A stretch of DNA of 64,000 nucleotides from positions 124,001 through 188,000 of the forward strand of contig LJHR01000026.1 in assembly GCA_001296005.1 (NCBI GenBank). Reading direction: 5' to 3'. The notes under the pieces are model-generated. The model did no database searches and had not been told where the DNA came from. It worked only from the letters and a program-made list of their open reading frames with translations. The DNA comes from an alpha proteobacterium AAP38. Lineage in GTDB: Bacteria; Pseudomonadota; Alphaproteobacteria; Azospirillales; Azospirillaceae. The position numbers and the translations under genes are program-made. Shown here in pieces: positions 26,659 through 47,300 of the stretch; positions within the stretch are counted from its first letter, which is position 1; each line of letters starts with the position of its first letter.

Positions 26659-28563
26659 TTAGAACAGCCGCAGGATCGACTGCTGAGCCTGATTGGCCAG
26701 CGAGAGGGAGATGGTGCCCAGCTGCTGACGGGTCTGCAACAGCAGCAGGTTCGCGCCTTCCTCGTTCTGGTCGGCCTGGACCAGCTTGTTCGCACCTTCA
26801 ACCAGAACGTTGGAGAACTCGTTGGTGAAGCTCTCGCGGGTCTGGATGACGTTCAGGTTGGTTGACAGAGCCTGAGAGGCGCTGCGCAGCGTGGAGGTTG
26901 CGAAGTCCAGGCTGGCAACGGCCTTGTCGATATCGGCACGGTCCAGGAAGTTGTTCTGGGCATAGTCGATACGCAGGCCCTGGCCGTCCGACGTGACGTT
27001 CCGGCTCACCACCTGGATGTTGGAGGTGTTGTCGGCGTTGAACTGAACAGCCAGATCATTCTCGGTGTTGGCATCCGTACGCTGAACCGTCGTCAGGTTA
27101 GCCGACTTCGCAGCCGAGGCCGCCGCCTTGACGGTAGAGGCATCAACGGTCACACGAACGGTGCCGCTATCGAAGGTCAGCGAGTTCTCGCCTTCGCTCA
27201 GCTTGGAATTGCCGCGGGCATTCAGGCCCGAACGTTCCACCGTCACACCGTTGAGGTTCGTGGCCGACAGAGTGATGTCGACATTCTTCTCAATGGTCGA
27301 GACGCCGTTGGCGGCAGTGCCCTTCGCCTCAAGCAGAGTACGATCCACCGTGAACGAGACAGTCGTACCGGAGGAGAATGTCAGCGAAATTGCCTTCGTC
27401 GAGGCATTGGAGGAGGTTGCACCGATCGTGAAGCTGGTGCCGGTGCCGGTCGTCAGATCCGAGCTGACTTCAAAATAGTCATTGCCGGCATTGTAGACCA
27501 CATTGAAACGCTCGCCCGTGCCGTCCGCCGTGGCGCTGGTGCCAACAGCGGAGAAGTCCGAGCCGGCAGCCACTGCATCGGCAAGCTTGCTGGCAATCTG
27601 TTCGCGGAGTTCATCCGGCGTACGAGCAACGCCAGCGTTTTCCAGATCGCCCGCCTCAACCGTATATGAGAAGGACTGACCATTCACCGTCGCAGTGAAG
27701 GTATCACCCTCTTCGATAGAGCCGCTGATGGTGACGCGGGACGTCTGAGGCGTGCCCGAAGCACCAGCAGTCGTCGTGCTGGCGACCGCCGACTGCGTGT
27801 TGTCGAAGAACTTGAATGTACGCGACTCGCCGTTTTCCGTCACAATGGCCGTACGCTCACGACCGCTGTTACCGCGAATCTCGACGCTGATGTCGGAGAA
27901 GTTACCGGACGTCGCAGAGATGGTGCCGGCGACCTTCAAAGAGGCCAAGCCGCGGCTGTCCTCCGCCTTCGCGATATCTTCCAGATCGGCGCTGATGGCA
28001 CCGGTGCCGCTGACCTTAACGGAGTAGGTGTCGGCGCTGACGACGTTCGTCACTCGGCTATTCGACAGGCCGGAGATGCTGTTGACACCCTTGCGGCTGT
28101 CGGCGGTGCTGTCCAAGGTCAGACCATTGCCCTTCAGCAGGTTCTTACCCTGATAACCGCTGTCGCCGGCGATCTTGTCGATCTGATCCTTGAGGCGATT
28201 GAACTGCTCCGCCAGCGACTTGCGCGCAGCGATGGAGGAAGCGTCATTGCCCAGATTGGAGTAAGCGGTCGTGGTCAGACCACGGGCCTGTGCAACCAGA
28301 TCCTCAATGGCGGTGATACCCTTGTCACCGGCCTGGATCGTGCTGATGGCCTGGCCCATCGCTTCCTTGAGGCTCGACAAATCGCCTGCACGGGTGTTTA
28401 AGCCCTTCGCAGCGAAGAACGAGTTGGGGCCATCAAGGGCAGAATTGACCTTGTTACCGGTCGCCAGACGCGACTGGATGGACTCGACCTGCTTGTTGGT
28501 CTTCTGCAGGAGCAGAAGGTTATTACGCATACCAGCGGTCAAGCTGACGTCATTACCAGACAT
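26659..28563 (-). CDS. fliC: Flagellin
   Basis: 634 residues from the ATG at 28563, which has AGGAGAG eight bases ahead. The conserved N-terminal D0/D1 (VSLTAGMRNNLLLLQKTNKQ, then SIQSRLATGNKVNSALDGP) and the C-terminal D1/D0 (ANLLLLQTRQQLGTISLSLA, ending SILRLF) flank a ~360-residue variable surface region. The variable region is rich in Thr/Ser and contains a module like those in the hook protein (GDTFTATVNGQSFSYTVEAGD). Many Ser/Thr are available for O-glycosylation by the adjacent FlmG-like enzymes. An upstream in-frame ATG would add 20 untypical residues. It is longer than typical alphaproteobacterial flagellins (~270-400). Confidence 0.95.
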   Translation of the reverse strand: MSGNDVSLTAGMRNNLLLLQKTNKQVESIQSRLATGNKVNSALDGPNSFFAAKGLNTRAGDLSSLKEAMGQAISTIQAGDKGITAIEDLVAQARGLTTTAYSNLGNDASSIAARKSLAEQFNRLKDQIDKIAGDSGYQGKNLLKGNGLTLDSTADSRKGVNSISGLSNSRVTNVVSADTYSVKVSGTGAISADLEDIAKAEDSRGLASLKVAGTISATSGNFSDISVEIRGNSGRERTAIVTENGESRTFKFFDNTQSAVASTTTAGASGTPQTSRVTISGSIEEGDTFTATVNGQSFSYTVEAGDLENAGVARTPDELREQIASKLADAVAAGSDFSAVGTSATADGTGERFNVVYNAGNDYFEVSSDLTTGTGTSFTIGATSSNASTKAISLTFSSGTTVSFTVDRTLLEAKGTAANGVSTIEKNVDITLSATNLNGVTVERSGLNARGNSKLSEGENSLTFDSGTVRVTVDASTVKAAASAAKSANLTTVQRTDANTENDLAVQFNADNTSNIQVVSRNVTSDGQGLRIDYAQNNFLDRADIDKAVASLDFATSTLRSASQALSTNLNVIQTRESFTNEFSNVLVEGANKLVQADQNEEGANLLLLQTRQQLGTISLSLANQAQQSILRLF

Positions 28564-28570
28564 AGTGTCT

Positions 28571-28607
28571 CTCCTTTGGAGGTATGATTTACCCGAATTT
28601 TTCGGGT
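28571..28607 (-). promoter_or_regulatory. Flagellin mRNA leader hairpins, one covering the ribosome site
   Basis: In the minus-strand RNA, ACCCGAA-AAA-TTCGGGT (28591-28607) forms a 7-bp hairpin. Eight bases before the start region, CTCC-AAA-GGAG (28571-28581) pairs the Shine-Dalgarno GGAG with CTCC just upstream. FlbT is known in Caulobacter to act on a flagellin leader, so these are candidate FlbT targets; that link is inferred. Confidence 0.55.
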
Positions 28608-28648
28608 TAAGTGCAGGGAACACCTATTTCGGGGAGGAGTCAAGCCGT

Positions 28649-30124
28649 TTAACGACGGACGCCAGCACCTATACGCATGGACAGATCGCGCGCCAGTTCG
28701 GCAAGTGGCACGGACCAGTCACCGGGCCTTTCCTGGCGGAACAGACGGACAGAAGGATACCATGCAGTATCCGCCCGTCCCAGACCCCAGCGCCAGTCGG
28801 GAACCGCCGTGATTAGGATATTCGTGGCAATGCCGATGGCCCCCGCCAGATGGGCCGGCATTGTGCAGCAACTGACCAGAACATCCAGTCGGGAGAGAAT
28901 GGCAGCCGTGTCGGCGATGTCGGCAATCTTTGCGCCCAGATCGATGGTGCCTGGTGGCAATGAATACCGCGCCAGTTGCTGCCGTCCGCCCCCCACCTGC
29001 ACCACGACCGGGCTGATCCCCGGAATGGACATCAGTGGCAGCAACTGATCCAGGCTGAGGGAGCGTTCAAGATCGCGGGCATTGTCGGGATTGCCGGCCC
29101 ATACAAAGCCAACCCGTAATCGACGCGCCTCTGAGAGACGGGATTCCCAACGGGCGGCAAGCACCGGGTCGGGATGCAGATAGGGCACCCTGCCCGGAAC
29201 GTGCCCGGCATCCCTAACAAAGAGGCCCGGCAGTGACATGCATGGCAGAATGCCATCCACGGGCGGAACCGGCATCCCCTCATCGAGGAATGCTTCCACA
29301 CCTGGAAAATCGGCCAGCAGCCGGCGCATGGGGGCCGGGCGCTGCATGATGATACGCACCCCTTCCGCCGCCAGCAGAGGCAGGAACCGCAATATCATGA
29401 GGATATCGCCCAGCCCCTGCTCCACCGTCACCAGCACCCGCATCCCGAATACCGGCCGTTGCGTCAGAAAGCGTAAGCCGAACGGTGCCGCTCTGGCGCC
29501 CGCCGGCCCATCACGACGAAATTCGTGCAGCATCCAGCCGCGCGCCATGTCCCCTGTGAGAAGGCGCAGCAGCGACTCGTTCCAGCGCGCTCTGTTTCCC
29601 TCCGACGTGCCGACGGCCCCGCGGCGGCCAGCCTCGGTGAAGGCGCAAAGGGCTGCATCCACCGCCCCGGTCGCATGCAGCGCTGCCCCCAGCGAGTTCC
29701 AGTTTGCTGCGGAATCCGGTTCCAGCGCACAGGCGTGGCGCAACGTTACCGACGCCTCCGCAGCCCTGTTGCTCCCCAGCTGTGCCAGACCAAGATTGCG
29801 CCATGCACCAGCCATGTCGGGCGCAAGCGCGACGGTCCGCGCATAGGCAGGGACGGCGCGCGCATTGTCGCCAGACGCCCGATAGGCGTTGCCCAACAGC
29901 AGGTGTAGAGCAGGCATATCGGGAGCACCGATGAGGGCAGCCTGAAAAGCCTCAATGGCCTCCTGCGGCCTATGTAGTCGCAGGAGAGCCTGCCCCAACT
30001 GGGCCTGGGCATAGGAATCCTTGGGATCAAGCAAGACGGCCTTCGCGGCGGTAAGCTGTGCACCCGCCGGGTCGCCATCGGCCAGCAACTGCTCCGCCTG
30101 CCGGGCGAAAAATCCCGCTTCCAT
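28649..30124 (-). CDS. FlmG-like TPR glycosyltransferase, second copy
   Basis: 491 residues: TPRs in the first ~180, then a GT domain with VEQGLGDILMILRFLPLL near residue 233. It is 85 bases upstream of flagellin and on the same strand, the best placed of the four paralogues to act on it. The C-terminal nucleotide-sugar segment is unusual: DVLVSCCTMPAHLAGAIG replaces the DLVI-TAVGELAGALG of the giant protein, with Cys-Cys in place of the usual residues before the Thr. Either it uses a different donor or it is catalytically altered. Confidence 0.78.
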   Translation of the reverse strand: MEAGFFARQAEQLLADGDPAGAQLTAAKAVLLDPKDSYAQAQLGQALLRLHRPQEAIEAFQAALIGAPDMPALHLLLGNAYRASGDNARAVPAYARTVALAPDMAGAWRNLGLAQLGSNRAAEASVTLRHACALEPDSAANWNSLGAALHATGAVDAALCAFTEAGRRGAVGTSEGNRARWNESLLRLLTGDMARGWMLHEFRRDGPAGARAAPFGLRFLTQRPVFGMRVLVTVEQGLGDILMILRFLPLLAAEGVRIIMQRPAPMRRLLADFPGVEAFLDEGMPVPPVDGILPCMSLPGLFVRDAGHVPGRVPYLHPDPVLAARWESRLSEARRLRVGFVWAGNPDNARDLERSLSLDQLLPLMSIPGISPVVVQVGGGRQQLARYSLPPGTIDLGAKIADIADTAAILSRLDVLVSCCTMPAHLAGAIGIATNILITAVPDWRWGLGRADTAWYPSVRLFRQERPGDWSVPLAELARDLSMRIGAGVRR

Positions 30125-30955: not shown

Positions 30956-32878
30956 TTATCCAGATCTTTTGGGTGGTGACAGCGCCAGCGCGTTAACCAA
31001 TTCGGCGATTGCGAGGCGCCAATCAGCCCATTGTCTCTGCCTGAAAAGACGCAACTCCGGATACCAGGGGTTGTCTGCCCGATGGCGCAGCCACCGCCAG
31101 CAGCCATCAAAGCGCGACAGCACCCAGGTCGGCCTGGCCAGCGCCGCCGAAAGATGGATGACAGCCGTATCCACACCGATCACCAAATCCAGTTCACTGA
31201 CCAGTGCCGCGGTATCGGCGAAATCCGTCAGTTCATCTGTCCAATCATGCAATGGGAAAGGCGCCTGCGCTGCCTCAGCTGCCTTGGGTCCCTTCTGGAG
31301 GCTGACATACGTAATGCCGGGGAGCGTGCCCAAGATCGCCAATTGCGACAGGGACAGGCTGCGTCTTTTGTCCGTTGCCGCCGCCCGCGGATCACCCTCC
31401 CGCGAATCCCCGGCCCAGACCAACCCCACCCTCAATCCCGGCAGATCGCGCAGCCGTTGACGCCACAGATCATGACGATCCGACGGGGCCGAGAGATATG
31501 GTACCTGCGCTGGAATGTCTGTCAGATTGCAGGTACCAAGGCGCAACGGAAGGCCCAGCAAGGGACAACGGCATGATACCGTCTCTGGCACCGGCGCTCC
31601 CAGCCGTTCAACCGCGATATCCGACGGCAGGCTTTCACGGAACAGCCTGACCAGGGCCGGCTGCACCTGCAACAGCACATTCAGGCCCCGCGCCCTCAGC
31701 AACGGCAGATAACGCACAAACTGCAAACTGTCGCCATGCCCCTGCTCCGCATGGACCAACAGGATGGCGCCTGACGGCAAGCTGCTGCCGTCCCAGACGG
31801 GGAGGGCACGCAAGACGGGGGAAAGGCTGAAGCCCGGTATGTCCCACCGCCATTCATATTCCCGCCAGCCTTCAACAAAATCCCCGGCTATCAAGCGGGC
31901 CTGCGCGCGTTGCCAATGCACCACGGGCATTGACGGGGCGAGTTGCAGCGACCGCTGATAACAGCGCTCCGCCCCCTCATCATCACCCAGATCACGCAGA
32001 AGCGTACCGAGATTGAGATGGGCGGGCAGATTATCCGGATCAATCACAATGGCGGCATCGAACGCCTGACGGGCGTCTTCCAGAAAGCCCTGGCCATGCA
32101 GGGCAACACCCAGCGCCACGAGGGGCCCAGGCCGGCCAGACGACCCGACCGCAGCCTGGCGCGCTGCGGCGGCAGCCTCCTCGAAACGCCCCAGGATGGA
32201 AAGCACATCCGACCGCGCCAGCAGGGCGGCGCCATTATCCGGCTCCCGCGACAGCACGGCATCGAACAGGGCCAGCGCCTCCTGATGTCGTTCCGCCCGC
32301 AGCAACGCAATGCCCAGGCGATTGGCGATGACGGTATTGGCCGGCGACAGGCGATGCGCTTCTGTCAGCAATGACACAGCCTCGGGCCGGTTCAGAAACT
32401 CTCCATCAGTACAACGGTTGAAAAGCACCGCCGCCAGATTGCCGGCTGCGGACGGCAAACCGGGTACCAGCACCAGGGCCCGGCGCAACAGCACCTCCGC
32501 CTCCTGCGGGTCCGTGCCGGCAAGCAGGGCACCCTGCTCCGCCAGGGCCTCCGCCTGCTGGGCGGGGTTTGCATCCAGTTGGGTAATGGCCGTGGCAAAG
32601 GCCTGCCGGGCCGCCGCCGGGTCACCGGACTGCCGCAGGGCGATACCCAGATTGTGCCACCAATCCCCGCGGCCATCCTTCATCCGCAGGGCCGTGCGCA
32701 ATGCCTTCACGGCAGCGCTTGCCTTGCCCTGGGAAAGGCATGACATGCCCAGCAGGTAATGTATTTCCGCCAGCGCGGGTGCCGCGACCAGGATATCCCG
32801 ATAGGCAGCCTCCGCCCCGGCCCAATCGCCCGCCTGATGGCGTGCGATGGCCTGATCGATCGCTGAATTGACATCCAT
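30956..32878 (-). CDS. FlmG-like TPR glycosyltransferase, third copy
   Basis: 640 residues from ATG 32878 (DVNSAIDQAIARHQAGDWAG). About ten TPRs fill the first ~350 residues, then the GT part has HAEQGHGDSLQFVRYLPLL near residue 376, and a C-terminal GVDTAVIHLSAALARPTWVL, which is closer to heptosyltransferase-type (GT9-like) nucleotide-sugar sites than the version in the giant protein. It ends in NPWYPELRLFRQ. The open frame extends further upstream, but that part lies over the Pro-rich lipoprotein and has no family match. Confidence 0.8.
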   Translation of the reverse strand: MDVNSAIDQAIARHQAGDWAGAEAAYRDILVAAPALAEIHYLLGMSCLSQGKASAAVKALRTALRMKDGRGDWWHNLGIALRQSGDPAAARQAFATAITQLDANPAQQAEALAEQGALLAGTDPQEAEVLLRRALVLVPGLPSAAGNLAAVLFNRCTDGEFLNRPEAVSLLTEAHRLSPANTVIANRLGIALLRAERHQEALALFDAVLSREPDNGAALLARSDVLSILGRFEEAAAAARQAAVGSSGRPGPLVALGVALHGQGFLEDARQAFDAAIVIDPDNLPAHLNLGTLLRDLGDDEGAERCYQRSLQLAPSMPVVHWQRAQARLIAGDFVEGWREYEWRWDIPGFSLSPVLRALPVWDGSSLPSGAILLVHAEQGHGDSLQFVRYLPLLRARGLNVLLQVQPALVRLFRESLPSDIAVERLGAPVPETVSCRCPLLGLPLRLGTCNLTDIPAQVPYLSAPSDRHDLWRQRLRDLPGLRVGLVWAGDSREGDPRAAATDKRRSLSLSQLAILGTLPGITYVSLQKGPKAAEAAQAPFPLHDWTDELTDFADTAALVSELDLVIGVDTAVIHLSAALARPTWVLSRFDGCWRWLRHRADNPWYPELRLFRQRQWADWRLAIAELVNALALSPPKRSG

Positions 32879-32879
32879 G

Positions 32880-33155
32880 TCAGGTGCCCGCCTTTGGCGC
32901 GGGGGGGGTGGGGGCAGGCTTGGCGGGCGGGGGTGGCTTTGCCGCGGGTGCCGGTGTCGTTGGTACCGGTGCCGGGGCGGGCGATGTTGCCGGGGGCGGG
33001 GCGGGAGCCGCAACAGGGGCCGGAGCCGCAGGGGCCGCTACCGTGGCTGGAGCCGGGGCCGGCGGGCGGGTCGGAACATACATGTAATTGTCGTTCACCT
33101 GGCTTTCATGGCTGGCGCAGGCCGATAGGGCCAGACCCAGCACTAGGATCACCAT
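32880..33155 (-). CDS. Small Pro/Ala-rich lipoprotein
   Basis: 91 residues. A short hydrophobic signal ends in the lipobox LSAC (Cys13 would be lipidated). The mature part is a long Ala/Pro repeat tail of low complexity, suited to span a wall or periplasm gap. The stop is one base before the third FlmG-like start region, so the two are likely coupled. A GTG at 33218 could start a version with 21 more N-terminal residues. Confidence 0.6.
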   Translation of the reverse strand: MVILVLGLALSACASHESQVNDNYMYVPTRPPAPAPATVAAPAAPAPVAAPAPPPATSPAPAPVPTTPAPAAKPPPPAKPAPTPPAPKAGT

Positions 33156-33223: not shown

Positions 33224-33919
33224 CTAGCGCGAGACCTGATCTAGGAAGCTTTCATCATGCACAATGATGTAGCCGTTACGGTAGGAAATGGCCCCTGCTG
33301 TCTGGAACTGCTTCAACGTCTTGTTCACGCTTTCCCGCGACACGCCCAGCATATTGGCCAGATCTTCCTGGCTGACGAAGGTGGTGATGCGTGTACCGGC
33401 ATCGGTGGCGCGGCCATAGGCCTGGGACAGCATGAGGATGCGCTTTGCCAGTCGGCGCGGTACGTTGAGGAAAACCGTGTCCTCGATGATCGCGCTTGTC
33501 CAGCGCACCCGTTCGCACAGAACCGTCATGAGGCGAACGCAGAGATCAGGACGCTGCAACAGAAACGGCATGAAATCGCGGCGGTCGATCCGCAGAAGTT
33601 CCGTGGCCTCCTGCGCCACCACCGTTGCCGTCCGCTCGCCACCATCAAGCATGGCGATCTCCCCGAACAGGGAGCCCGTATCAAGGATGTTCAGCAGCAT
33701 GACCTTCGCCTCATCCGACTCGGTCTGTACCGCCACCCGTCCACGCAGAATGACATAGAGGCTGTCGCCAGGGTCACCCTTGGCGAAGATACGCTCCTCC
33801 GCTGCGGCCCGCCGAACCTTGGCGAACTCCAGCATCGCTTCCATTTCAGTGTCGTCTAATACCGCGAAAAGACTGTTGCGGCGCAGAAGCGCGGTATCTA
33901 AGGCAGGTGCCACTGACAT
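33224..33919 (-). CDS. Crp/Fnr-family transcription regulator
   Basis: 231 residues: a cyclic-nucleotide-binding domain (FGEIAMLDGGERTATV at about residue 90, with the Glu and Arg-Thr that contact cAMP in Crp) and a C-terminal winged helix (SQEDLANMLGVSRESVNKTL). No N-terminal Cys set for an Fe-S cluster, so Fnr function is unlikely. It lies just downstream of tfuA. A perfect TGTGA-N6-TCACA site is present 2.5 kb away in front of the putative RiPP precursor gene. Together with the cyclase gene at 36925 it could make a local cAMP circuit. Confidence 0.85.
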   Translation of the reverse strand: MSVAPALDTALLRRNSLFAVLDDTEMEAMLEFAKVRRAAAEERIFAKGDPGDSLYVILRGRVAVQTESDEAKVMLLNILDTGSLFGEIAMLDGGERTATVVAQEATELLRIDRRDFMPFLLQRPDLCVRLMTVLCERVRWTSAIIEDTVFLNVPRRLAKRILMLSQAYGRATDAGTRITTFVSQEDLANMLGVSRESVNKTLKQFQTAGAISYRNGYIIVHDESFLDQVSR

Positions 33920-33998: not shown

Positions 33999-34748
33999 TC
34001 AGACGGGCATTGCCGATGCCGGACGGGCCACCCGCTCCCACATGGCCGTATGCTCGAAAGCGTAGATCGGTCGGACGCTGAGGGTGCCACTGGCCAGCGT
34101 ATCGCGCACATGGGTCAGCAGGGACACGGCATCCTCGCGCTTCTGATCGGCCCGCCCGATGGTCAGCCAGTCACGGAAAGCGGACAACTCGAAAGGATCG
34201 GCCTCGCCTTCCTCCTCCGCCTCGCGCAGGACTCGACCATAATTACGGTCGCGGTAACAGAGATCCTTGGCAATCTCCTCCAGGCGCCGCCGTCCCTCTA
34301 CCGAGAGGATGGCAGCGGCATGCGCGTCGGACAGGGTGCGGCGGATATTGACCATGGCTTCGGACAGCGAAGGATAGCCAAGCTCCGCCGGTCCATGGGT
34401 GACTGCCACCTCGTCATCATCTTCCAGCCGACCATCGGCGAAGGCCTGGAACACGGCCCCATGGCCTTCCATCCCGAACGTATGCAGTTCGGCTGCCCGC
34501 AGGGCCCCCATGCTGGCCGCCCCAAACACCGGGATACCGCGCGCCATGGCAAAAAGGATTTCCTTGTGCCAGACGGCAGGGACATTCCCGAAATAGCCAT
34601 CAATGATGATGATGGCCGCCGGATTATCCTGAACTGCGCGCAGCACGTCGCCCTGTGCGACAGGCGGTCGGAAATCAGCGTTCAACACCTTGCGCGCGGC
34701 GGATACAGGCAGGGTGGGGCCCAGGAAGACGATCACAGGATTGCTCAT
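33999..34748 (-). CDS. tfuA: TfuA-like protein (thioamidation partner of YcaO)
   Basis: 249 residues. The TfuA core is clear: LGPTLPVSAARKVL at the start, IIIDGYFGNVPAVWHKEILFAMARG and FGAASMGALRAAEL in the middle. In thioviridamide-type RiPP pathways and in methanogen McrA modification, TfuA works with YcaO to convert a backbone amide to a thioamide, probably by delivering sulfur. It follows ycaO by 18 bases, a fixed pair in those systems. Confidence 0.92.
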   Translation of the reverse strand: MSNPVIVFLGPTLPVSAARKVLNADFRPPVAQGDVLRAVQDNPAAIIIIDGYFGNVPAVWHKEILFAMARGIPVFGAASMGALRAAELHTFGMEGHGAVFQAFADGRLEDDDEVAVTHGPAELGYPSLSEAMVNIRRTLSDAHAAAILSVEGRRRLEEIAKDLCYRDRNYGRVLREAEEEGEADPFELSAFRDWLTIGRADQKREDAVSLLTHVRDTLASGTLSVRPIYAFEHTAMWERVARPASAMPV

Positions 34749-34766: not shown

Positions 34767-36005
34767 TCAGGCAAGCCCGGCGGCGCGGCGCCCGCGCGCA
34801 CCCAGGCTATATTGCGACGTCGCATCCACACCTTCGAGGCCCGGCACCACAACCCGGACAACGGGGATGCCGATCTCGGCACGGGTCAGGTCTACAACGA
34901 CGACATCTTCGATACCGACATTGGTAAGGCGCTGCCGCAACTCGCCCAGGTCACCGCGCAGGGATTGACCGCGCCATCCCTTGATCTCGTTGAAGTCACG
35001 TACTGTAGCGCCCAGACGGATGCGGTTCAGCCACAGCATCTGCTGCTCTTCCGCCAGGAAATGATCATATTCCTCGCGGCGCATGTCATCGCGCGCACCG
35101 GAGATGAAGGTCAGCCGGCTTTGCGCAGCCTCGGTCAGGGCGCGGGACAGCGCGATTTCCGGCACCAGATTCGTGCCATAGCCGGCGGCCGGGCGCACCG
35201 TCGTCCCCAGGCCGGCATCGGCCTGAACAATGCGGGCCAGGAAGGTGGGGACCCCGATATCGGACGTCAGGTCCCACACCCCAACGGCAACACCGGCATG
35301 GGCGAAGCGTGCCAACAGCGCACGGCAAGCCGGATCGGCGATGGTTTCCAGGTCAACGCGGGTATCTTCCTGCGCCTCTTCGGGCAGCAGATTCCACAAG
35401 GTGCGGGCATCCCGCTCAATCACTTCGGAAAGACCGTGGATCACCGCCTCGATCCAGTGATTGCCCGACGCCAGACCGTTCGACGTGGCCTGAAAACAGC
35501 CATGACCCGTTGGCAGCGGCAGGGTATAGTTGCTGTGAACCATCTCATACGGGATCCACAGGCTGTTGCCATCCCGGAGATTGGTGCCCTCCGCCCACAG
35601 CAACTGATGGTGCGGGGTGTAGACACTGTCCATGTTGCAGGGAAGCAGATCGGGGTCCACCACGGGCAGCGAGTAGCGCAGATCCTCATAGGAACCGATA
35701 CGCAGCGACAGGTGCGAGGCCCGTTCCGCATGCCAGCTTTCAATGCTTTCCATCACCGCAGACGCCTTGGCCGCAGCCAAGGTGACGCCTTTACCCTGCG
35801 AAACGGCCAAACCGCGAGAATTGGGGCGGTTGACCATGACGACGGGAATACCGATCGTGTCCAGGCCGGTAACATTGGCCACGCGGGTGATGCCGAATAA
35901 CGGGAACAGCGGTTTAACACGGGCCAGCGTCTCTTCCGCCGAGACTAACCGGCGCCATTGCGGGGCTTCCAGATTGTCCCAGTCGGTCAAGCGAACCTGA
36001 TCCAT
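34767..36005 (-). CDS. ycaO: YcaO-domain protein, thioamide-forming type
   Basis: 412 residues; N-terminal region, then the YcaO ATP-binding fold with Glu-rich motifs AAKASAVMESIESWHAER and AVIHGLSEVIERDA. YcaO enzymes phosphorylate a peptide backbone amide using ATP. The C terminus (SLGARGRRAAGLA) lacks the Pro-rich PxPxP end of azoline-forming cyclodehydratases, and no E1-like/ThiF partner is present, which fits thioamidation with TfuA. It is 86 bases downstream of the small precursor gene on the same strand. Confidence 0.92.
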   Translation of the reverse strand: MDQVRLTDWDNLEAPQWRRLVSAEETLARVKPLFPLFGITRVANVTGLDTIGIPVVMVNRPNSRGLAVSQGKGVTLAAAKASAVMESIESWHAERASHLSLRIGSYEDLRYSLPVVDPDLLPCNMDSVYTPHHQLLWAEGTNLRDGNSLWIPYEMVHSNYTLPLPTGHGCFQATSNGLASGNHWIEAVIHGLSEVIERDARTLWNLLPEEAQEDTRVDLETIADPACRALLARFAHAGVAVGVWDLTSDIGVPTFLARIVQADAGLGTTVRPAAGYGTNLVPEIALSRALTEAAQSRLTFISGARDDMRREEYDHFLAEEQQMLWLNRIRLGATVRDFNEIKGWRGQSLRGDLGELRQRLTNVGIEDVVVVDLTRAEIGIPVVRVVVPGLEGVDATSQYSLGARGRRAAGLA

Positions 36006-36091: not shown

Positions 36092-36268
36092 TTACATCTT
36101 GGCCATATGCAGATCGGCACTCGCGAAGTGCAGGTCGGCGGAAGCGCCATTATCCATCGCGCGCTGCGCCGGAACGCGGCCGCGGGACAGGTTCTGCTCC
36201 TCGGTCACAACCACGGCCCCGTTCGGGCCAATACGGTACAGGCGGCCATCGGCACCACGCGTCAGCAT
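36092..36268 (-). CDS. Candidate RiPP precursor peptide with duplicated ASADLH core
   Basis: 58 residues from ATG 36268, with AAGGAGA eight bases ahead, the best ribosome site in the region. The leader-like first part is MLTRGADGRLYRIGP, with NGAVVVTEEQNLSRGRV following. The end is ASADLH-F-ASADLH-MAKM, a tandem repeat typical of multi-core RiPP precursors. It lies directly before ycaO-tfuA. The two ASADLH units use different codons. No signal peptide or membrane helix. No protease or exporter gene is adjacent, so how a product would leave the cell is unknown. It could be an unrelated small protein, but the placement and repeat make a RiPP substrate the best reading. Confidence 0.75.
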   Translation of the reverse strand: MLTRGADGRLYRIGPNGAVVVTEEQNLSRGRVPAQRAMDNGASADLHFASADLHMAKM

Positions 36269-36380
36269 ATGTGTTCTCCTTGGATTACAGCTTAGAGTTT
36301 GTTCGAGTGACAACCTGACAACGCAGAGCGCATGTGTCTGGCCTCGCCAATGACCGTAATCCGGCACGTCCGTTTTGCTG

Positions 36381-36396
36381 TGTGAAGTGGTTCACA
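36381..36396. promoter_or_regulatory. Perfect CRP-class binding palindrome
   Basis: TGTGA-AGTGGT-TCACA, matching the CRP consensus in all ten defined positions, inside the 229-bp divergent region between the precursor gene and the ribbon-helix-helix gene. It is ~120 bases from the precursor start and ~100 from the other start, so it could serve either. A pair of TGACAAC repeats at 36308-36322 lies between it and the precursor gene. Confidence 0.75.
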
Positions 36397-36924: not shown

Positions 36925-39873
36925 TCAGTGAAGCAAGGCGGATCGCCCGGCCACACCAAGACTGTTGGTGGGCAAGTGATGGGCCATCGCCTTAAGATCG
37001 CTCTCTTCAGGCATGGACCGGCGAAGCAGGCCATAACCCCGCTCCTGTACGGTGCGGGCCAATTCCTGCCGCTCCTTCAACGCCTCTTCCATCCGTCCTG
37101 CCAGGGCAAGGACGAGCATGCGGGCGTGACGTGCCCATGCCCCATGCAGGGCCGCTCCCCTGCTCTGTGCAAGCCGCAGCCCGCGCTCAATATCCGCAAG
37201 CCCGCCACTAACCCGGCCAAGATAGGCCAATGCCAAACCGCGCCGGGCCAGATTGATGGCGTCCAATAGAGTCGATCCGGTTGCACGCGAGATGTTGAGC
37301 GCCTCGGAGCTGAAAGCCAGGACATCGCCAAAACGGCGCTGCCGCATCCGGACATCGGCAAGGTCAAGGCGGGCATAAATACGGTTGAACGGATAGCTGC
37401 TGGCCTGCGCGCCCTGCAGCGCCTTCTGAACAAATATCTCCGCCTCTGCGTCCCGTCCAAGCTGGGACAGGCAGCAGGCCCGCTTTCCGGCTATCACCAT
37501 CCCGGCATCCAGGGTCAGGTAAAGCCCGCGTTCGTGATTGATCCAGGCTTCCGTCCGTTCCGCCAGATCCAGCAATGTCAGGGCCTGTTCTGCGGACCCA
37601 TCATCCAGAAGGCAGGCAGCGGCGATGATCAGCAATTCCGGATGGGCACGGGTCATCCCGCCGCTATAGGCGATAACCGTCTCCGTCAAGGCGACAGCCT
37701 GGTCCAGACGGCCATAAACCCGTTCGTAATTTATCTGCTGCACCATGCCGGCCAGGGCACGCGACTCGTCGCCAGCCGCGCGCGCAAGAACGACCGCACG
37801 GTCCAATGCCAACAGCGCGCGCCCCCCGTCACCCGCGGGCATGGCCGCCCGGGCCAGGGCCAGACGCAGGTCGATGCCATCCAGCATAACCTCATGCGTG
37901 TCTTCCAGCTTTTCATTCGCTTCCACAGCGATGGACAGAAGGGAAACAGCCTCCACCGCCAGGGATCGGCTCAACGCATCCTGTGCGGCGGCACGGCCCG
38001 CCTGCACGGCGGTATCCCAGAGGCAGCCACTGGACGCATGGCGCGCCTGGGCTGCCAACCGGCCTGGCAGCTGCACGAATTCTTTATCCCCCAGCAGCAG
38101 GGCCAGGGCGGCGTGCTGGTGTTGGCGGTCACGCCGCGTGATGCCAGTATAAACAGCCTCATGCAGCAAGGCATGATGGAAGCTGCACTCCTGCCGGGGC
38201 AGCAGTCGGGTTTCATCAATGAAACCCAAACGGATCAGGTCCTGAAGACGATCCCCTATGGTGGCGCTGCGGAAATGCGCGGCCAGCACCGCGATATCGA
38301 ATGTCGGCCCGACCACGGACGCCGCCCGCAGCAACTGGCGGGCTTCCTCGTCCAGCATGTCCAGGCGCGCCGCAAGCAATGACTGCACGGTATCCGGTAG
38401 CGGGATTTTTGGTACGGGACCGGGCAGCATAGCCCCGACATCGCCAAGCAGCGCCCCGTTCATCATGAGGACGCGAATGCATTCGACCATGAAAAACGGA
38501 TTGCCCCTGGCGCGGCGGGACAAGTCAGCCTTGATCGCTTCCAGCGCCGGCGACTGCCCCATCCACATATCCAGAAGACTGTTCACCTCGGACGCGGCAA
38601 GCGGGGACAGCGGATATTTTCGCAGGACCGTCTGGCTGGCGATGCTGGCCGCCAAGCCTTCCTCTCGGCTGGACAGGACCAGAACCATCCGTGTATCGGC
38701 AGGGGTCTGCTGAAGCAGGGCGGACAGGGTGGCCTGCACCGCCGTGTCCGCCCAATGCGCATCCTCCACCAGCAGGACAAGGGGGTGACGGGTGGCGGCA
38801 GACCGGGCCAGGGCGACAACGGCACTGACCGCCAGCGCCAGAATGGCCGACGCTCCACCCCGGCTTTCATCATTGCTGGGCAGAAGCACACCGACCAAGG
38901 CATCCGCCTCTTCCGGGGAGGCGCCTGCGGCACGCAGCATGGCCGCAATACCACCCCCCGTCCGGGGCAGGGGGCAATCCAGAAGCTCCACAACCAGCTG
39001 GTGCAACGGGCTGGGGGCGCCCACAGGCTCCACCGCGGGCACCTGCCATTCAATCACTCGCAAGCCCCGCGAACGGGCCATGTCGGACAGGGCACGGATC
39101 AGGCGCGTTTTGCCCAGGCCGGCTGCACCCTGCACCAAATGCGCGGAAAATGGCGTCGAATGGTCACCATCCAGGGCGTCCATGGCCAGGCCAAGCTGCT
39201 TGCGGATCGATTCACGCCCCACAAGCGGCAGGCAATCATCATACTGGCGGCGCCGGGTGCGCAGACCCAGAAACTCATGGCTCTGCGTCGGCTCATCTCC
39301 GCCCAGCGCCAGCAGCATCGAAGGGCGCGTTTCCACCCAATCAGAGATCAGCCGCGCTGTGCAATCCGCCAACCGGGCGCCATTGGGCGGGGCAGATTGC
39401 TGCATCTTTGCCGCGATGTGGATGGCGGGACCCGTCGCGGGATTGGCCGACTGCCGGCCAACCGCCATATGGTCCCACAACACTTCGCCTGAACAGATAC
39501 CGATACGAACAGCCCGACCGCCGCGCGCAACCTCACGAAGAATGGCATCGGCAGCGTAGCAAGCCCGGATCGCGTGATTTTCCTGGGAAACAGGAGCACC
39601 GAAAACAGCGTAGATACCATCGCCAAGGGTCTGGCAAACAGTGCCGCCGAAGGCCAGCACATGGCGGCGCATGATATCGATGATGCCCGACAACTGGTCA
39701 TAGGCGTCTTCCGGATCCTGCGGGATCACCAGCTTGGATGATTCAACAATATCGCAGAAGAAGGCCGTCACCATGCGGCGGTCGGCCCGCGTCAGCGCCG
39801 GGCGCGCGGAACCCACCGATGCAATCATGCCATCGTGTGTGTCTACAACGCTCTCGACACCCGCCACCGACAT
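36925..39873 (-). CDS. Class III adenylate/guanylate cyclase fused to an AAA-type ATPase and TPR-like region
   Basis: 982 residues. An N-terminal cyclase domain (FFCDIVESSKL and LGDGIYAVFG hold the two metal-binding Asp residues, about residues 40 and 85) is followed by an AAA-type NTPase with Walker A GAAGLGKTR (~residue 250) and Walker B-like LVLLVEDAHWAD (~residue 369). The last ~400 residues are helical repeats like those of MalT/LuxR-type STAND proteins, but no DNA-binding helix is present. It likely makes cAMP or cGMP in response to an unknown signal. The gene is close to a Crp-family regulator and a CRP site, so a local circuit is plausible. Confidence 0.87.
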   Translation of the reverse strand: MSVAGVESVVDTHDGMIASVGSARPALTRADRRMVTAFFCDIVESSKLVIPQDPEDAYDQLSGIIDIMRRHVLAFGGTVCQTLGDGIYAVFGAPVSQENHAIRACYAADAILREVARGGRAVRIGICSGEVLWDHMAVGRQSANPATGPAIHIAAKMQQSAPPNGARLADCTARLISDWVETRPSMLLALGGDEPTQSHEFLGLRTRRRQYDDCLPLVGRESIRKQLGLAMDALDGDHSTPFSAHLVQGAAGLGKTRLIRALSDMARSRGLRVIEWQVPAVEPVGAPSPLHQLVVELLDCPLPRTGGGIAAMLRAAGASPEEADALVGVLLPSNDESRGGASAILALAVSAVVALARSAATRHPLVLLVEDAHWADTAVQATLSALLQQTPADTRMVLVLSSREEGLAASIASQTVLRKYPLSPLAASEVNSLLDMWMGQSPALEAIKADLSRRARGNPFFMVECIRVLMMNGALLGDVGAMLPGPVPKIPLPDTVQSLLAARLDMLDEEARQLLRAASVVGPTFDIAVLAAHFRSATIGDRLQDLIRLGFIDETRLLPRQECSFHHALLHEAVYTGITRRDRQHQHAALALLLGDKEFVQLPGRLAAQARHASSGCLWDTAVQAGRAAAQDALSRSLAVEAVSLLSIAVEANEKLEDTHEVMLDGIDLRLALARAAMPAGDGGRALLALDRAVVLARAAGDESRALAGMVQQINYERVYGRLDQAVALTETVIAYSGGMTRAHPELLIIAAACLLDDGSAEQALTLLDLAERTEAWINHERGLYLTLDAGMVIAGKRACCLSQLGRDAEAEIFVQKALQGAQASSYPFNRIYARLDLADVRMRQRRFGDVLAFSSEALNISRATGSTLLDAINLARRGLALAYLGRVSGGLADIERGLRLAQSRGAALHGAWARHARMLVLALAGRMEEALKERQELARTVQERGYGLLRRSMPEESDLKAMAHHLPTNSLGVAGRSALLH

Positions 39874-40011: not shown

Positions 40012-42003
40012 TCAGCCATGCGGGGGCAAATTTTGCTTAAGAAATCGTATAATTTCTGCAAGCCCGGCTTCAACGCCTGATGAATGTAAGAATAGGCGCA
40101 TGGACGAGAACCATGGACGGGTACCCGCACCAAGAGTTGACCAGTCGCGATCTCTAACAATTCTCCAGACGGGTGTGCCCACCGCTCCTGCCAGTTCCCC
40201 TACGGCGGTCGGTGCCGTAATCACCAGATCCAGATTGGCGACCAAGGCGGCAAGTCCCTCAAGATCATTGGTAAGGTCCAGATCCGGCATGGTGTGCAGT
40301 ACTCGCCCTTCCCTTCCGAGGGCCGCAACCTCCTCCTCCCGGGCCGAATATTGCAGGTTGACCACCTGAATATCCGGTATGGCAAGCAAGGGCGCCCAGG
40401 CGTCCACATCCACATAATTGTGCCGGCGACGCGTGGTTATCAGGCGGGAGCGCCAGCAGATACCAACCCGCAGACCGGCAGGCAGCGCCGCCAACCACTG
40501 ACGGGCCGTTTCCGACCGCTTCCGGTCGACCACCAGATAAGGCGCGCCTGTATAGCCAGACAACGACGGGGCGATAAGGCCGGGCAGATCACCGGCCGGG
40601 ACATGCAGGTCGGCATCCGGGCGTTCGGGCGCATCCGACCCGTCAGGCGGCAAGCGCTGCGCCCGGATGGATGCCGACGGGAAACTGCGGGTGAAAAGCC
40701 CGACCAGACGGGGATCACACTCGATCACCGTCTGTTCGGCACGGCTGATCGCAGCTGCATATAGGCCTGCGAACATCAGCTCATCACCCAACCCCTGTTC
40801 CCGCCAGATCAACAGCCGCTTGTCGGACGCCGCTTCACCGCGCCACTGAGGTACTGTGAAACGTCGGTCGGGCAATGCTTCTCTTGCGGCGAAACGCCAG
40901 GAATAGTCCGACCAGCCCTCGGGAAGCTGGCCATCCTCCAAACGAAGCAGCGCACGGGCAACACGGACACGGGGCAAATCGGGGTCAAGCTCCAGCGCCC
41001 TGTCGATTGCCGCGCAACCGCGCGCGCGGTCCCCTTGCGCCAGCCGGCAGAGACCGAGATTGCCCCATACCTCCCCGGAGCCGGGCGCAATGGTCAAGGC
41101 CCGGGACAAGACGGCTTCCGCTTCCACCAACTGGCCGGTCAGTTCCAGGGCAGCGCCCAGGTTGGTCAGACCCTGAACATTATCCTGTTCCAGACACAGA
41201 CCCAGGCGATAGGCATCAATGGCGGCATCCATCTGATCCAGTTCCTGCAGCGCCACGCCCAGGAAAATAAAGGCCTCTGCACTTTCCGGTGCCGCGTCCA
41301 CCGCTGCCCGGTGAAAAGCCAGCGCTTCGCCCAGCTTGCCACGCTCGACCAGGATATTGCCCAGGTTCGACAAGGTTTCCGCATGACCGGGCCGCAGGGT
41401 CAGCGCCTGGCGATAGGCCTGTTCGGCACCCGCCAGCTCCCCCCGAAGGGCCAGGACAGCGCCAAGATTGTTCCAGGCCTGCGCATGTGACGGGTTCGCG
41501 GACAGCAGCAGCCGGTAGGAAGCCACTGCGGCATCCAGCTCGCCGATGGCCCGCTGGCTGTTGGCCAGATTAAACAGGGCCCCCGCATGTCCTGGCCGCC
41601 CGTCCAGGGATCGGCGATAGGCATCAATGGCCTGCCGGTGGGCACCCATGGCGGCATAGGCGTTTCCCAGATTGAACAGATAGGGGGAATGATCGGGGCG
41701 CTGCTGGAGCGCCTTGCGATGTGCCTCCACAGCGGGCGCTGGATGACCGGCAGCCCGCAGGGCGCTGCCCAGATTGTCCTGAATATCCGCGGCCTGCGGC
41801 TGGCGTTTGGCCGCGTCCTTCAGCAGGCGCACGGCTTCTGTCGGATCACCCATCTGCAATAGGGCAACCCCCAGCAGATTAAGCAGCTGCGCATTGCGCG
41901 GATCCCGTGTCAGCAAGGCCCGGTAGGCACGCGCTGCCCCCGCCACGTCTCCACTCTGGTGCATACGCACCGCCTGTTCGGCTGTAACCGGCATGCCCGT
42001 CAT
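40012..42003 (-). CDS. FlmG-like TPR glycosyltransferase, fourth copy
   Basis: 663 residues: about ten TPR repeats up to residue ~370, then REQGLGDELMFAGLY near residue 401 and a C-terminal DLVITAPTAVGELAGAVGTPVWR. This is the closest of the three smaller paralogues to the modules of the giant protein at 5177, including a TLGAGTRPWFSSMR tail. Located upstream of flaF but on the opposite strand, in a region otherwise devoted to flagella. Confidence 0.82.
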   Translation of the reverse strand: MTGMPVTAEQAVRMHQSGDVAGAARAYRALLTRDPRNAQLLNLLGVALLQMGDPTEAVRLLKDAAKRQPQAADIQDNLGSALRAAGHPAPAVEAHRKALQQRPDHSPYLFNLGNAYAAMGAHRQAIDAYRRSLDGRPGHAGALFNLANSQRAIGELDAAVASYRLLLSANPSHAQAWNNLGAVLALRGELAGAEQAYRQALTLRPGHAETLSNLGNILVERGKLGEALAFHRAAVDAAPESAEAFIFLGVALQELDQMDAAIDAYRLGLCLEQDNVQGLTNLGAALELTGQLVEAEAVLSRALTIAPGSGEVWGNLGLCRLAQGDRARGCAAIDRALELDPDLPRVRVARALLRLEDGQLPEGWSDYSWRFAAREALPDRRFTVPQWRGEAASDKRLLIWREQGLGDELMFAGLYAAAISRAEQTVIECDPRLVGLFTRSFPSASIRAQRLPPDGSDAPERPDADLHVPAGDLPGLIAPSLSGYTGAPYLVVDRKRSETARQWLAALPAGLRVGICWRSRLITTRRRHNYVDVDAWAPLLAIPDIQVVNLQYSAREEEVAALGREGRVLHTMPDLDLTNDLEGLAALVANLDLVITAPTAVGELAGAVGTPVWRIVRDRDWSTLGAGTRPWFSSMRLFLHSSGVEAGLAEIIRFLKQNLPPHG

Positions 42004-42149: not shown

Positions 42150-42623
42150 ATGAAGCCTGCGACGGGGTACAACAATCGTCCCACTTCCGATGATCCCCGC
42201 GATGTCGAGGCTTGGGGCCTGACGGAAGCGGCACGCCGCCTGATCCATGCCCGGCAAGCGCCGGAAAATCCGGATCTGTTGCGGCAGGCCCTCTCCCTCA
42301 ATCAGCGGCTATGGACGATATTCCAGACCTCCATGGTCGATCCGGAATGTCCGCTGCCAAAGGATATCCGCGACAATGTGCTGGCTCTGTCCATCATTGT
42401 CGACCGGCAGACCTTTGACCGGCTCATTGATCTGGATGTCAACAAGCTGGATCGGCTGATCGATATCAACCGGGCCGTGGCTACCGGTCTTTCTCAGCGC
42501 CCGACGGCGTCTGCGGCATCACCAACTGCTCCGTCCGCGTCGGCTGCGCCGCAGACGGCACCGATGCCCAAGCCGCAGGCACCGCCTCCCGGCGCCCCTG
42601 GCAAGCTCAGCATTTCGATCTGA
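42150..42623 (+). CDS. flaF: FlaF, flagellin synthesis regulator
   Basis: 157 residues. Family core LLRQALSLNQRLWTIFQT, CPLPKDIRDNVLALS, VDRQTF and LIDINRAVATGL is seen, matching FlaF of alphaproteobacteria, needed for flagellin translation or secretion and opposite in effect to FlbT. The C-terminal ~45 residues are an Ala/Pro-rich extension unusual for FlaF. It lies 16 kb from flbT and flagellin. Confidence 0.88.
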   Translation: MKPATGYNNRPTSDDPRDVEAWGLTEAARRLIHARQAPENPDLLRQALSLNQRLWTIFQTSMVDPECPLPKDIRDNVLALSIIVDRQTFDRLIDLDVNKLDRLIDINRAVATGLSQRPTASAASPTAPSASAAPQTAPMPKPQAPPPGAPGKLSISI

Positions 42624-44350: not shown

Positions 44351-47300
44351 TTACCGCTTCAGGTTGATCGTCTCCGTCAGCATTTCGTCGGTGGTCGTGA
44401 TCACGCGGGTATTGGCCGTGTAGGACCGCTGCGCCACGATCAGCTTGGTGAATTCCTGCGCGATATCGACGTTCGATCCTTCGATGGAGCTTGCGGCGAT
44501 CACGCCGGCACCGTTGACGCCGGTGGAGGTGAAGCGGGCGCGACCGCTATCCGCCGTTTCGGTGAAGGTGCCGCCCGTTTCACGGCCCAGCGCGTTCGCA
44601 TTGTTGAACAGCACCAGAGGCACCTGTGCGATCACACGGCGGCGACCATTGTCATAATTGGCGACAACGTCACCGTTTTCGCGGATTTCCACGTCCCGGA
44701 AGGTACCCTGCGGGCTGCCATCCTGAAGCAGGGAGGTCACGTTGATGGCGTTGCCCTCATACTCCGTAAGGCCCGTTGCTTCACCGAACGTCCCGAGATC
44801 CAGCGTGATGCGCTGCGGGCCGTTGCCATAATCGACGGTGAAGCTGACCTGGGCGGGCTGGCCGCCTTCGGTCACGGCGCTCACCGTGGCATTGCCGGTG
44901 CCGACATTCGCGGAAGACAAGCTGGACAGCGTACCGGCCTTGGCGGCTTCACCATTCGGCAGCGTACCACCGAAGTTCAGCGTGATGTGCGGCGGCGTGG
45001 TGCCGATGTTGGAGCTGGGCTCACCCAGGAAGGGAATGCCATCCTGGTTGCTGGTCATGGTGATGACGCCGCCGACCGAGGTGGCCTGCACCGGAATGCC
45101 GCTTTCCTGGTTCACCTTCAGGGCCAGATTGGCGGCGATCTCATCCAGCGACACTTCATTGCCGGTCGTCGTGTAGGTGATGGTGCGGTTGAAGTTCGGG
45201 GCCACTTCCTGGGTGCCGTTCAGCTGGATGCTGGCATCCTTGGCCGTCAGCAGAATGCCGTTGGTGACACCGTCATCCTTGATGGCCGATGCCGTGAACG
45301 GCGCGCCGAAATCATTGCCCACCTTTGTGACAAGGGCATCCAGCACGCTGGCCGGTGTCGGGAAATCACCGATATTCTGTTCCGTGATCTGCACCGCGTA
45401 GGTGGTGCCATTCATGGTGACGGCATAGCGGTTGCCAACAGCCGGCGTAGCGGTTGTCGTGGAGAAGTCAAAGAACTGCGACGACGGATCGGTAGCCAGA
45501 TCATCCGTACCGGTGACACGGAACGGCGTGTCGACGGCATTGCCAGTCAGCACCAGCTTGTTGCCACTGACCGTTGGCGTCACGTCGGCAGAAGTGATCT
45601 GCGGCAGGAACAAGTTAGTCAGGGCCTCCGTCGTCGTCGGCGGCTGCGTCGGCAGACCGTCCAGGTCAGCCTGAGTCAGGGGGCCGTAATTATAAGCAGT
45701 CCCATTGATGGTGACGCTGTAGACGTCGCCGACCTTCGGCGCTGTGCTGGGATAGGAAACTTCAGTCACCTGAGAGGCGGAAGCCGAAGGCTGAGTCGTC
45801 GTCGTGCCTTCCAGGGAGATGGGATCGACCTGGTTGGTCGACGGGCTGCGCAACGTCACAGAGTAAGTGGCGCCGACATCACCCGGCACACCGGTGATGG
45901 AGATGCGCTGCGTCTGACGCGAACCGGTGATATTGCCCTGGACCGAGCTGACGAAGGTCGTGTTGTCCGCCGGCGGCGCATTGTTGACATTGGCCTGCAT
46001 GAGGCGGTCACGACCGCTGACGGTGAAGGCTGTGTTAACATTGTCAGCCGTCAGGACCAAGCGGGTGCCCGACACGGACGCCGTCACACCCAGGGCTTGG
46101 GCGTTGATATCGGCGGCGAAGGTGGCCAGTTCGGTCGCCATGTCGTTACCCGAGACGGGCGCGTAGGTGATAGTGGTCCCGTTGATGGTCACCGACATGT
46201 CGTTTTCGTCGTCGGTAATGTCACGGTTCGGGTAGCTCATCTCCGTGACCTGGGCTGCCGACGACGAAGCCGCCGTCGTGGTCGTGCCGGCCTGCTCACC
46301 GACATTGAAGCTGTCGCCAACCGTCGTGCCACGCAGGGTCAGCGTGTTGCCCGTCACCGAGGCGATGACCTTCTCCGTGGAGGAGTTGGCATTCACTTGC
46401 GCGGCCAGCGCCGTCACGACACCGTTCAGGTCTTTCAGCTGACCAATATTGGCCGCCGTCACCTTGACCGTATAGGTCTGGGTGCTGTTGTTGTCGACAT
46501 TCAGCGTGAATTCGTCGCCGATATCGACCGAGCTGCCGGCAAAGGTGATCACGGACTGCTGCTGCTGCGTGCTGGTCGCCGGGGTCGTCACCGGGGCATT
46601 GGCCGTGTTGACGGTCGGCGTCGCATTGTTGACGTTGGTCGTCAGGGTGAAATCATCGCCCGCCGTGGTGGCAGAGATGCGCAGACGGCCATTGGAAACA
46701 TTGGCGGTCACACCGACCGGCGGCACGGCGCCGTTGATCTTGTCGGCCAGGGACTGGGCGACGCCGGTCAGATTGGACAGCTGCGAGGAGTTGGTGGTGG
46801 TCACCGTCTCGGTGAACTCCACGCCATTGATCGCAACGCGATAGGTATCGCCGATCTTGAAGGCGCCGTCGCCATTGGGCGACGTGAACTGCACTTCCTC
46901 GATCTGCTTGCGCGGCGTGATGCCCTGGGTCAGCGAGGTGGACTGGGCGGAGACCGGGAAGCCATCCAGGTTGCCGGACAGGGGCAGGTTGCCGACAGCG
47001 CCCGGCGTATCGACGGACAGGCGCCAGGCACCATCCACCTGGCCCGGACGCCAGCCCAGGGTGATGTCGCGCGGCTTACCCGTGCTGTCAAAGATCTGGA
47101 TCGTGGTCGGCTGGATCGGCTGGCCCGGCGTCGGATCGGTCGGCAAGTTCGCACGCAGCTCGATCGACTTGGTCGGAACCGGGCTGTCAATGTCGGCCGT
47201 GACCTGGATGGGTGTGGCGGAGGTCGAGAAAGAGTTCGTCGCCTCGCTGTAGATATAGCCGTTCAGCGCAAAGCCGGAGCGGTTGACCAGGATGCGCTCG

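Follow-up and report, generated by a model that had tools for sequence, protein, structure and literature searches.

What is made by the small gene that stands directly before a ycaO–tfuA pair in a bacterium of the Azospirillaceae, and to which part of the life of the cell could its product belong? The question is raised by a stretch of 64,000 nucleotides of the alphaproteobacterium AAP38 (contig LJHR01000026.1, positions 124,001 to 188,000), here called the window, in which a preliminary description, made from the sequence alone, had placed a thioamide-type RiPP locus with a 58-residue precursor inside a flagellar island. The answer proposed here, with a probability of roughly 0.75, is that of a self-contained locus for a thioamidated peptide, controlled by a cyclic nucleotide and orthologous to the cyst locus of Rhodospirillum centenum. 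That the small protein is a real and conserved precursor of RiPP type is shown, by its family and by its pattern of leader and core; its thioamidation, the mature peptide and the role of that peptide are inferred.

The features of the locus, in window positions, are the following:

33224..33919, minus strand: CRP/FNR-type regulator (cNMP_binding and HTH_Crp_2), orthologue of cgrA as judged from position and sequence
33999..34748, minus strand: tfuA (PF07812, 5e-46), probable orthologue of R. centenum gcyC by position and sequence
34767..36005, minus strand: ycaO (PF02624, 5e-86), in position and sequence a probable orthologue of R. centenum gcyB
36268-36092, minus strand: precursor gene, 58 aa, recognised by its conserved family, synteny and third-position substitutions
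36107..36124, minus strand: second core ASADLH, residues 49-54
36128..36145, minus strand: first core ASADLH, residues 42-47
36236..36259, minus strand: leader motif RGADGRLY, residues 4-11, from the alignment
36275..36281, minus strand: Shine-Dalgarno sequence AAGGAGA, 6 nt before the precursor ATG
36381..36396, no strand: CRP/CgrA-type box TGTGAAGTGGTTCACA, the sole match to TGTGAAN4TTCACA in the genome
36498..36836, plus strand: divergent RHH_4 gene (PF13467, 1.7e-20), orthologue of RC1_3784
36925..39873, minus strand: class III cyclase domain with AAA and a long C-terminal region (Guanylate_cyc, AAA_16), presumed orthologue of gcyA

The precursor gene

The product of the small gene is MLTRGADGRLYRIGPNGAVVVTEEQNLSRGRVPAQRAMDNGASADLHFASADLHMAKM (58 residues, then the stop), with a C-terminus that reads ASADLH-F-ASADLH-MAKM. 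What had been claimed for this gene held: the open reading frame is there, on the minus strand, behind its ribosome site, directly upstream of ycaO and tfuA, which lie on the same strand and match their families, and its core is duplicated. The duplication is not a product of chance, as an exact repeat of six residues at such spacing appeared in only 3 of 200,000 shuffles of the precursor residues. Moreover, the second copy of the core differs from the first at 6 of its 18 nucleotides, all of these changes being synonymous; the codons of the two copies thus differ, and the identity of the residues is not explained by a recent copying of the DNA.

Third codon positions hold most of the differences between species in this gene (for example, 23 of 27 between L004 and L005), and it is conserved beside ycaO across the Azospirillaceae, for which two reasons it is a true coding gene.

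A constant leader before variable cores

By profile search, a strong match to the precursor is found in 57 of 82 Azospirillaceae genomes (Niveispirillum, 11 of 11; the Azospirillum-type genus, of which several members match named Azospirillum plasmids, 44 of 45; and two more), all of them with TfuA, and a divergent additional precursor is found in G054. TfuA is present in 61 of the 82, namely these 57, G054 and three others, and the precursor in none of the 21 genomes without TfuA, while the Azospirillum-type genome G004 has neither. A search with the single sequence also recovers homologues of the family, of which even the weak ones adjoin ycaO; in the A. brasilense Sp7 record the precursor is carried with no gene listed there, and in Azospirillum sp. 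B510 it is annotated 'hypothetical'. The organism of the window is a Niveispirillum or very near to one, its YcaO being 80–97% identical to that of named relatives. Homologous loci that kept ycaO–tfuA without any related small gene would have refuted the proposal, and these are limited to a few divergent loci (G001, G057 and G081), of a different architecture.

Other ycaO–tfuA loci were also observed. A second TfuA is present in many Azospirillum-type genomes, and in one of that genus (G003) a second, different ycaO–tfuA locus (L115, 6612-7133) follows small genes, the N-termini of which resemble, by eye, RiPP leaders of the Nif11 type; in Legionella massiliensis (L037), two tfuA and two ycaO matches lie inside 5 kb.

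The signature of the family is the leader, R[GA][AP]DGxLY, and not the core. RGADGRL is invariant among 18 aligned precursors, with the following Tyr replaced by Phe in some, and across the Azospirillaceae R[GA]ADGRL does not vary; variants of the leader are RAADG in G054 and RAPDG in G166. Between clades, the first 20 residues counted from the motif average 54% identity, as against 9% for the last 20. An AlphaFold prediction made from six sequences gives the same division: residues 1-22 are confident (pLDDT ~89), mainly strand-forming and predicted to fold as a beta-hairpin, whereas the remainder (pLDDT <60) is disordered.

The cores, for their part, vary in company. In Niveispirillum the two members of a pair change together (ADLH/ADLH, ADLY/ADLY, AEIF/AEIF, AEIY/AEIY; that is, H/H, Y/Y or F/F), the copies within each precursor being the same or nearly so although their codons differ, and three species have a single copy, AELH. 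The Azospirillum-type genus has one different core, near (A/D)DHEA(A/G)R..ITPG. The expectation that ASADLH would mark the family thus failed, with relatives carrying ADLY, AEIF, AEIY, the single AELH, or unrelated cores such as ADHEAGR..ITPG, ADAGRWAITP and DDSQRHAANFIGT.

In a class-wide sample of 385 genomes, TfuA is present in 21, and two of these, from two other alphaproteobacterial families, contain the full locus (cyclase, CRP box, precursor, ycaO, tfuA and crp). In G158 (L162) the leader VRGPDGVLYEV precedes 20 copies of AGRWA(I/V)(T/S)P, and in G166 (L159) LTRAPDGHLYRI precedes five DDSQRHAANFIGT units and one variant, that is, six cores. In another phylum, Fodinibius roseus (Balneolota) has a 97-residue open reading frame with SLIRGADGALYFI directly upstream of ycaO. 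Behind one leader, then, the core is found in 1, 2, 6 or 20 copies according to species, numbers otherwise hard to explain, and the repeats are therefore likely to be the product.

As to further matches of the leader outside the family, the class-wide search led to a single true relative (the precursor with many cores in G158), and the rest lay mostly in long open reading frames, as did most of those of the phylum-wide search, the best of which (G716) is in an unrelated long frame on a contig other than that of its tfuA.

The YcaO–TfuA pair and its probable chemistry

The chemistry of the pair is probably thioamidation, although this is inferred and no thioamide has been demonstrated in a product. 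The curated families nearest to the two enzymes are those of the methanogen pair that thioamidates a glycine of McrA (TIGR03266 and NF033432). Both stay under the respective cut-offs, YcaO with 245.4 bits against 365 and TfuA with 214.7 bits against 235.2; and whereas the methanogen pair acts on the McrA glycine, the substrate linked here is a dedicated small precursor. The nearest solved structures are MJ1094 (6pe3) for YcaO and 6xp8 for TfuA. The marks of an azoline-forming (TOMM) YcaO are lacking: firstly, the enzyme has no Pro-rich C-terminus, as had been stated from the outset (its tail reads GARGRRAAGLA), and secondly, no azoline partner gene, such as an E1-like/ocin-ThiF partner or an azoline dehydrogenase, is seen nearby, either in a scan of eight proteins of the window at this point or in the 24 kb annotated for Azospirillum sp. 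B510. Thioamide chemistry is thus probable because the nearest families thioamidate, the Pro-rich tail is missing and azoline partners are not found nearby.

Adjacent ycaO and tfuA, a linked precursor in which the leader is conserved and the core variable, and a varying number of core copies are all present. The reading as a YcaO–TfuA RiPP locus, in which a short precursor carries a repeated core, was supported by every available test (co-occurrence, synteny, the conserved leader with variable C-terminus, the co-varying cores and the multi-core homologues), with thioamidation itself unproven.

The regulatory neighbours and the cyst locus of Rhodospirillum centenum

The informative neighbours, absent from the preliminary description, are the cyclase, the RHH gene and the CRP-type regulator with its box. 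The order cyclase, divergent RHH gene, precursor, ycaO, tfuA, crp is kept throughout the family, with the exception of two split loci and a few in which the cyclase or RHH match is missing or displaced; among the conserved genes of the locus there is none for export and none for a peptidase. The split loci are Azospirillum-type (G029, L102/L103; G011, L104/L105), with cyclase, RHH gene and precursor apart from ycaO–tfuA–crp, which sits with other RHH genes, the halves in G011 being ~90 kb from each other. In Azospirillum loci (e.g. L157, 15223-15603) crp has a further RHH gene behind it, which was not seen at that place in Niveispirillum loci.

A perfect GTGA-N6-TCAC palindrome lies upstream of 58 of 58 precursors. 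The window contains TGTGA-N6-TCACA only once, at the box, with 0.07 occurrences expected, and the 5.78 Mb genome has a single TGTGAA-N4-TTCACA. The regulator retains the phosphate cassette for a cyclic nucleotide, with its Arg-Thr, and so do nearly all of the orthologues.

In R. centenum, cyst development is controlled by CgrA, a cGMP-binding CRP homologue that footprints TGTGA-N6-TCACA upstream of RC1_3785-gcyB-gcyC-cgrA (PMC4681086). The published site is TGTGAAGCAGTTCACA, the distances from the peak being 188 bp to RC1_3785 and 43 bp to the divergent RC1_3784 (PMC4681086, Table 1). In our data, locus L107 (G076) contains TGTGAAGCAGTTCACA once, the start codons of its RHH gene and precursor are 232 nt apart, compared with 43 + 188 = 231 in that paper, and the sole substantial genes matched between precursor and crp are YcaO and TfuA. 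The box and the gene spacing of L107 are those of the published CgrA site, and by these criteria L107 is identified as the R. centenum locus itself. Gene order, box and spacing being in agreement, RC1_3784 is therefore the RHH gene, RC1_3785 the precursor, gcyB YcaO, gcyC TfuA and cgrA crp; for gcyB, gcyC and RC1_3785 these identities are to be taken as likely, resting on position and sequence and not on an annotated record, and that of the cyclase-AAA gene with gcyA is only presumed, as the identity of gcyA was not read from the primary papers. The gene order and the box of the gcy–cgrA locus recur in the window: the divergent small gene, the small gene, ycaO, tfuA, crp, the linked cyclase, and TGTGA-N6-TCACA in the divergent promoter. 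The main reading thus includes the view that this is the Niveispirillum orthologue of the R. centenum cyst-development locus, cyst formation by Niveispirillum not being established.

The gcy genes are reported to have been named in Marden 2011 and Roychowdhury 2015. In PMC4681086, gcyB and gcyC figure as guanylyl cyclase subunits without catalytic function, RC1_3785 is left as a hypothetical gene, a feed-forward loop is described for the cGMP cyst locus, and the authors state that RC1_3784 and RC1_3785 were never disrupted. Deletion of cgrA gave log2 fold changes of -8.9 for RC1_3785, -6.4 for gcyB and -6.1 for gcyC, with the text of the same paper giving 12- and 18-fold for RC1_3784/RC1_3785, at odds with the log2 values of its table. 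This locus, to which ours is alike in gene order (gcyA/RC1_3784/RC1_3785-gcyB-gcyC-cgrA), CgrA box and spacing, is nowhere treated as a RiPP locus in the literature searched.

In class III cyclases a Lys specifies the purine, and Asn/Arg and metal-aspartate residues are the usual positions of the active site. The cyclase domain of the window keeps the metal-aspartate positions and has Gln for Lys and His/Lys for the usual Asn/Arg; these unusual residues (CQTLGDG; IHIAAK in place of N..R) are largely common to the orthologues, and the product of the enzyme is uncertain because of them. The cyclase-AAA protein resembles the TOMM system kinase/cyclase fusion (TIGR03903) as a protein of cyclase-AAA type linked to a YcaO-type system; it is not a member, its score (187.7 bits) being far under the cut-off of 705.75. 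The PADLOC model of the Pycsar cyclase PycC matches weakly, through the general cyclase domain only. Cyclase-AAA genes were also seen to adjoin ycaO–tfuA without an adjacent crp in L098, L101, L169, L172 and L177, and no precursor was recognised in these loci or in L158; they could perhaps represent a separate association of cyclase and thioamidation.

The flagellar surroundings

The flagellar setting first proposed held only in part. The neighbours are real (flagellin, 26659-28623; FlaF, 42150-42623; FlgE-like hook gene, 44351-47662), but they characterise the neighbourhood of a genus and have little functional meaning: flagellar genes lie near the locus essentially in Niveispirillum only, with a hook-like gene also near it in G054 and G055, and are absent from its vicinity in Azospirillum-type genomes and in R. 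centenum. A functional link is thus rejected, the neighbourhood being genus-specific and incidental. Between the flagellin and hook genes there are three TPR proteins (28649-30124, 30956-33013 and 40012-42003), one of which has a glycosyltransferase family 9 segment; that they are genes of flagellin glycosylation is no more than a possibility.

A proposed mechanism and its alternatives

The scheme that joins these elements would be as follows: (i) the cyclase would produce a cyclic nucleotide, which in R. centenum is cGMP according to the literature; (ii) the CRP-type regulator, bound to that nucleotide, would occupy TGTGA-N6-TCACA and activate the precursor-ycaO-tfuA-crp operon and the divergent RHH gene; (iii) YcaO and TfuA would recognise the folded leader, the putative beta-hairpin of R[GA][AP]DGxLY, and (iv) put one or more thioamides into the disordered C-terminal core, present in 1, 2, 6 or 20 copies; (v) housekeeping peptidases would release identical short peptides, as has been proposed for thiovarsolins; and (vi) the peptide would act in or on the programme of encystment. 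What the analysis demonstrates is the precursor family, the leader/core pattern, the co-variation of cores, the synteny, the box and its identity with the published CgrA site; the activation by CgrA and cGMP and the role in encystment come from the literature on R. centenum. There is no chemistry, no expression data for the species of the window and no evidence that Niveispirillum forms cysts. We favour, by inference, a thioamidated peptide of the cyst phase, possibly sensed by the cyclase, with neither thioamide, mature peptide nor precursor phenotype shown.

The main reading admits two versions, between which the evidence hardly decides, the function of the peptide not having been demonstrated: that of a cyclase ligand is attractive, and that of a cyst-stage product has claims of about the same weight. 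In the first, a feed-forward model that we hold to be less likely than not, the thioamidated peptide could activate the AAA-fused guanylyl cyclase, and peptide, cGMP and CRP regulator could be joined in a positive loop by which cells are committed to encystment, the peptide being an autoinducer if secreted. In its favour, the cyclase adjoins ycaO–tfuA even in the five loci without crp or recognisable precursor, and the link of cyclase with YcaO–TfuA is therefore wider than that with CRP; it also fits the published status of gcyB and gcyC as cyclase subunits and the feed-forward loop. Against it, there are no data on binding or secretion, and the cores differ strongly between genera, so that a receptor would have to co-evolve.

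In the second version, to which we lean slightly less than to its denial, the peptide would be a product of the cyst stage (a protectant, metal binder, pigment or antimicrobial) downstream of cGMP and CRP, without a role in the synthesis of cGMP. The activation by CgrA during encystment supports it, as do the same strong differences between the cores of genera, to be expected of a product rather than of a fixed cofactor; against it, the near-universal syntenic retention (55 of 56 genomes of the Azospirillum-type genus and Niveispirillum), together with the close link to the cyclase, points to a role in core physiology.

It is unlikely that the small protein remains uncleaved as a stable regulator, for example a cyclase subunit, with YcaO and TfuA modifying RGADG and not the C-terminus. 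RGADGRL is indeed the most conserved stretch and contains glycines, and the nearest YcaO and TfuA families thioamidate a glycine in McrA; however, C-terminal repeats that are tandem, co-varying and amplified up to 20-fold would be hard to account for, and Gly5 is not essential, as RAADG and RAPDG indicate. Finally, that the enzymes modify some other protein (e.g. a ribosomal or cyclase protein), the small frame being an unrelated neighbour, has the precedent of YcaO proteins that can modify uL16 (PMC13063428) or McrA (PMC5589413), but is made very improbable by the tight co-occurrence and joint absence of precursor and TfuA, and by the presence of the same leader just before ycaO in Fodinibius.

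Relation to known systems and significance

Returning to the favoured reading of a thioamidated peptide under cyclic-nucleotide control, abundant YcaO–TfuA peptide loci in Proteobacteria are already known, more than 1000 ycaO–tfuA clusters having been predicted by genome mining (PMC8120280), as are repeated cores in thiovarsolins. The thiovarsolin locus varA-varY-varT of Streptomyces varsoviensis (PMC6511847) has a precursor with C-terminal repeats of variable number, and precursor, YcaO and TfuA suffice there for the basic thioamidated product, without need of a dedicated protease. The repeat-bearing precursor with YcaO and TfuA is common to both systems; however, the thiovarsolin core, APR, is unlike any in the present family, and that actinobacterial cluster, of unknown function (PMC6511847), has varO, varL, varP and varS, where the locus of the window has a cyclase, a CRP regulator and an RHH gene. 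The main text of PMC8120280 names neither Azospirillum nor Niveispirillum and makes no link to a cyclase or Crp, and no paper was found, in the literature searched, that treats TfuA together with Azospirillum or with cGMP. The link between a thioamide-type RiPP system and the cGMP cyst locus thus appears to be unreported, with the reservation that the search excluded the primary papers of 2011 and 2015, which may mention the domain names.

Few cGMP pathways are known in bacteria, and the cyst locus of R. centenum is a leading example. From the match of the loci, the cGMP-controlled switch to the dormant cyst would seem to include a sulfur-modified peptide that has been overlooked. If gcyB and gcyC modify peptides, and the first gene encodes a precursor of RiPP type, a component has been missing from what is described of encystment in R. 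centenum and Azospirillum. It is possible, in a bolder reading, that GcyB and GcyC are the thioamidation pair and that the peptide from the repeat precursor activates the AAA-fused cyclase, closing a loop of peptide, cGMP and CRP toward dormancy. If the main reading is true, the YcaO–TfuA peptides of Proteobacteria would gain a regulated and conserved role, and the leader motif R[GA][AP]DGxLY would serve to find them.
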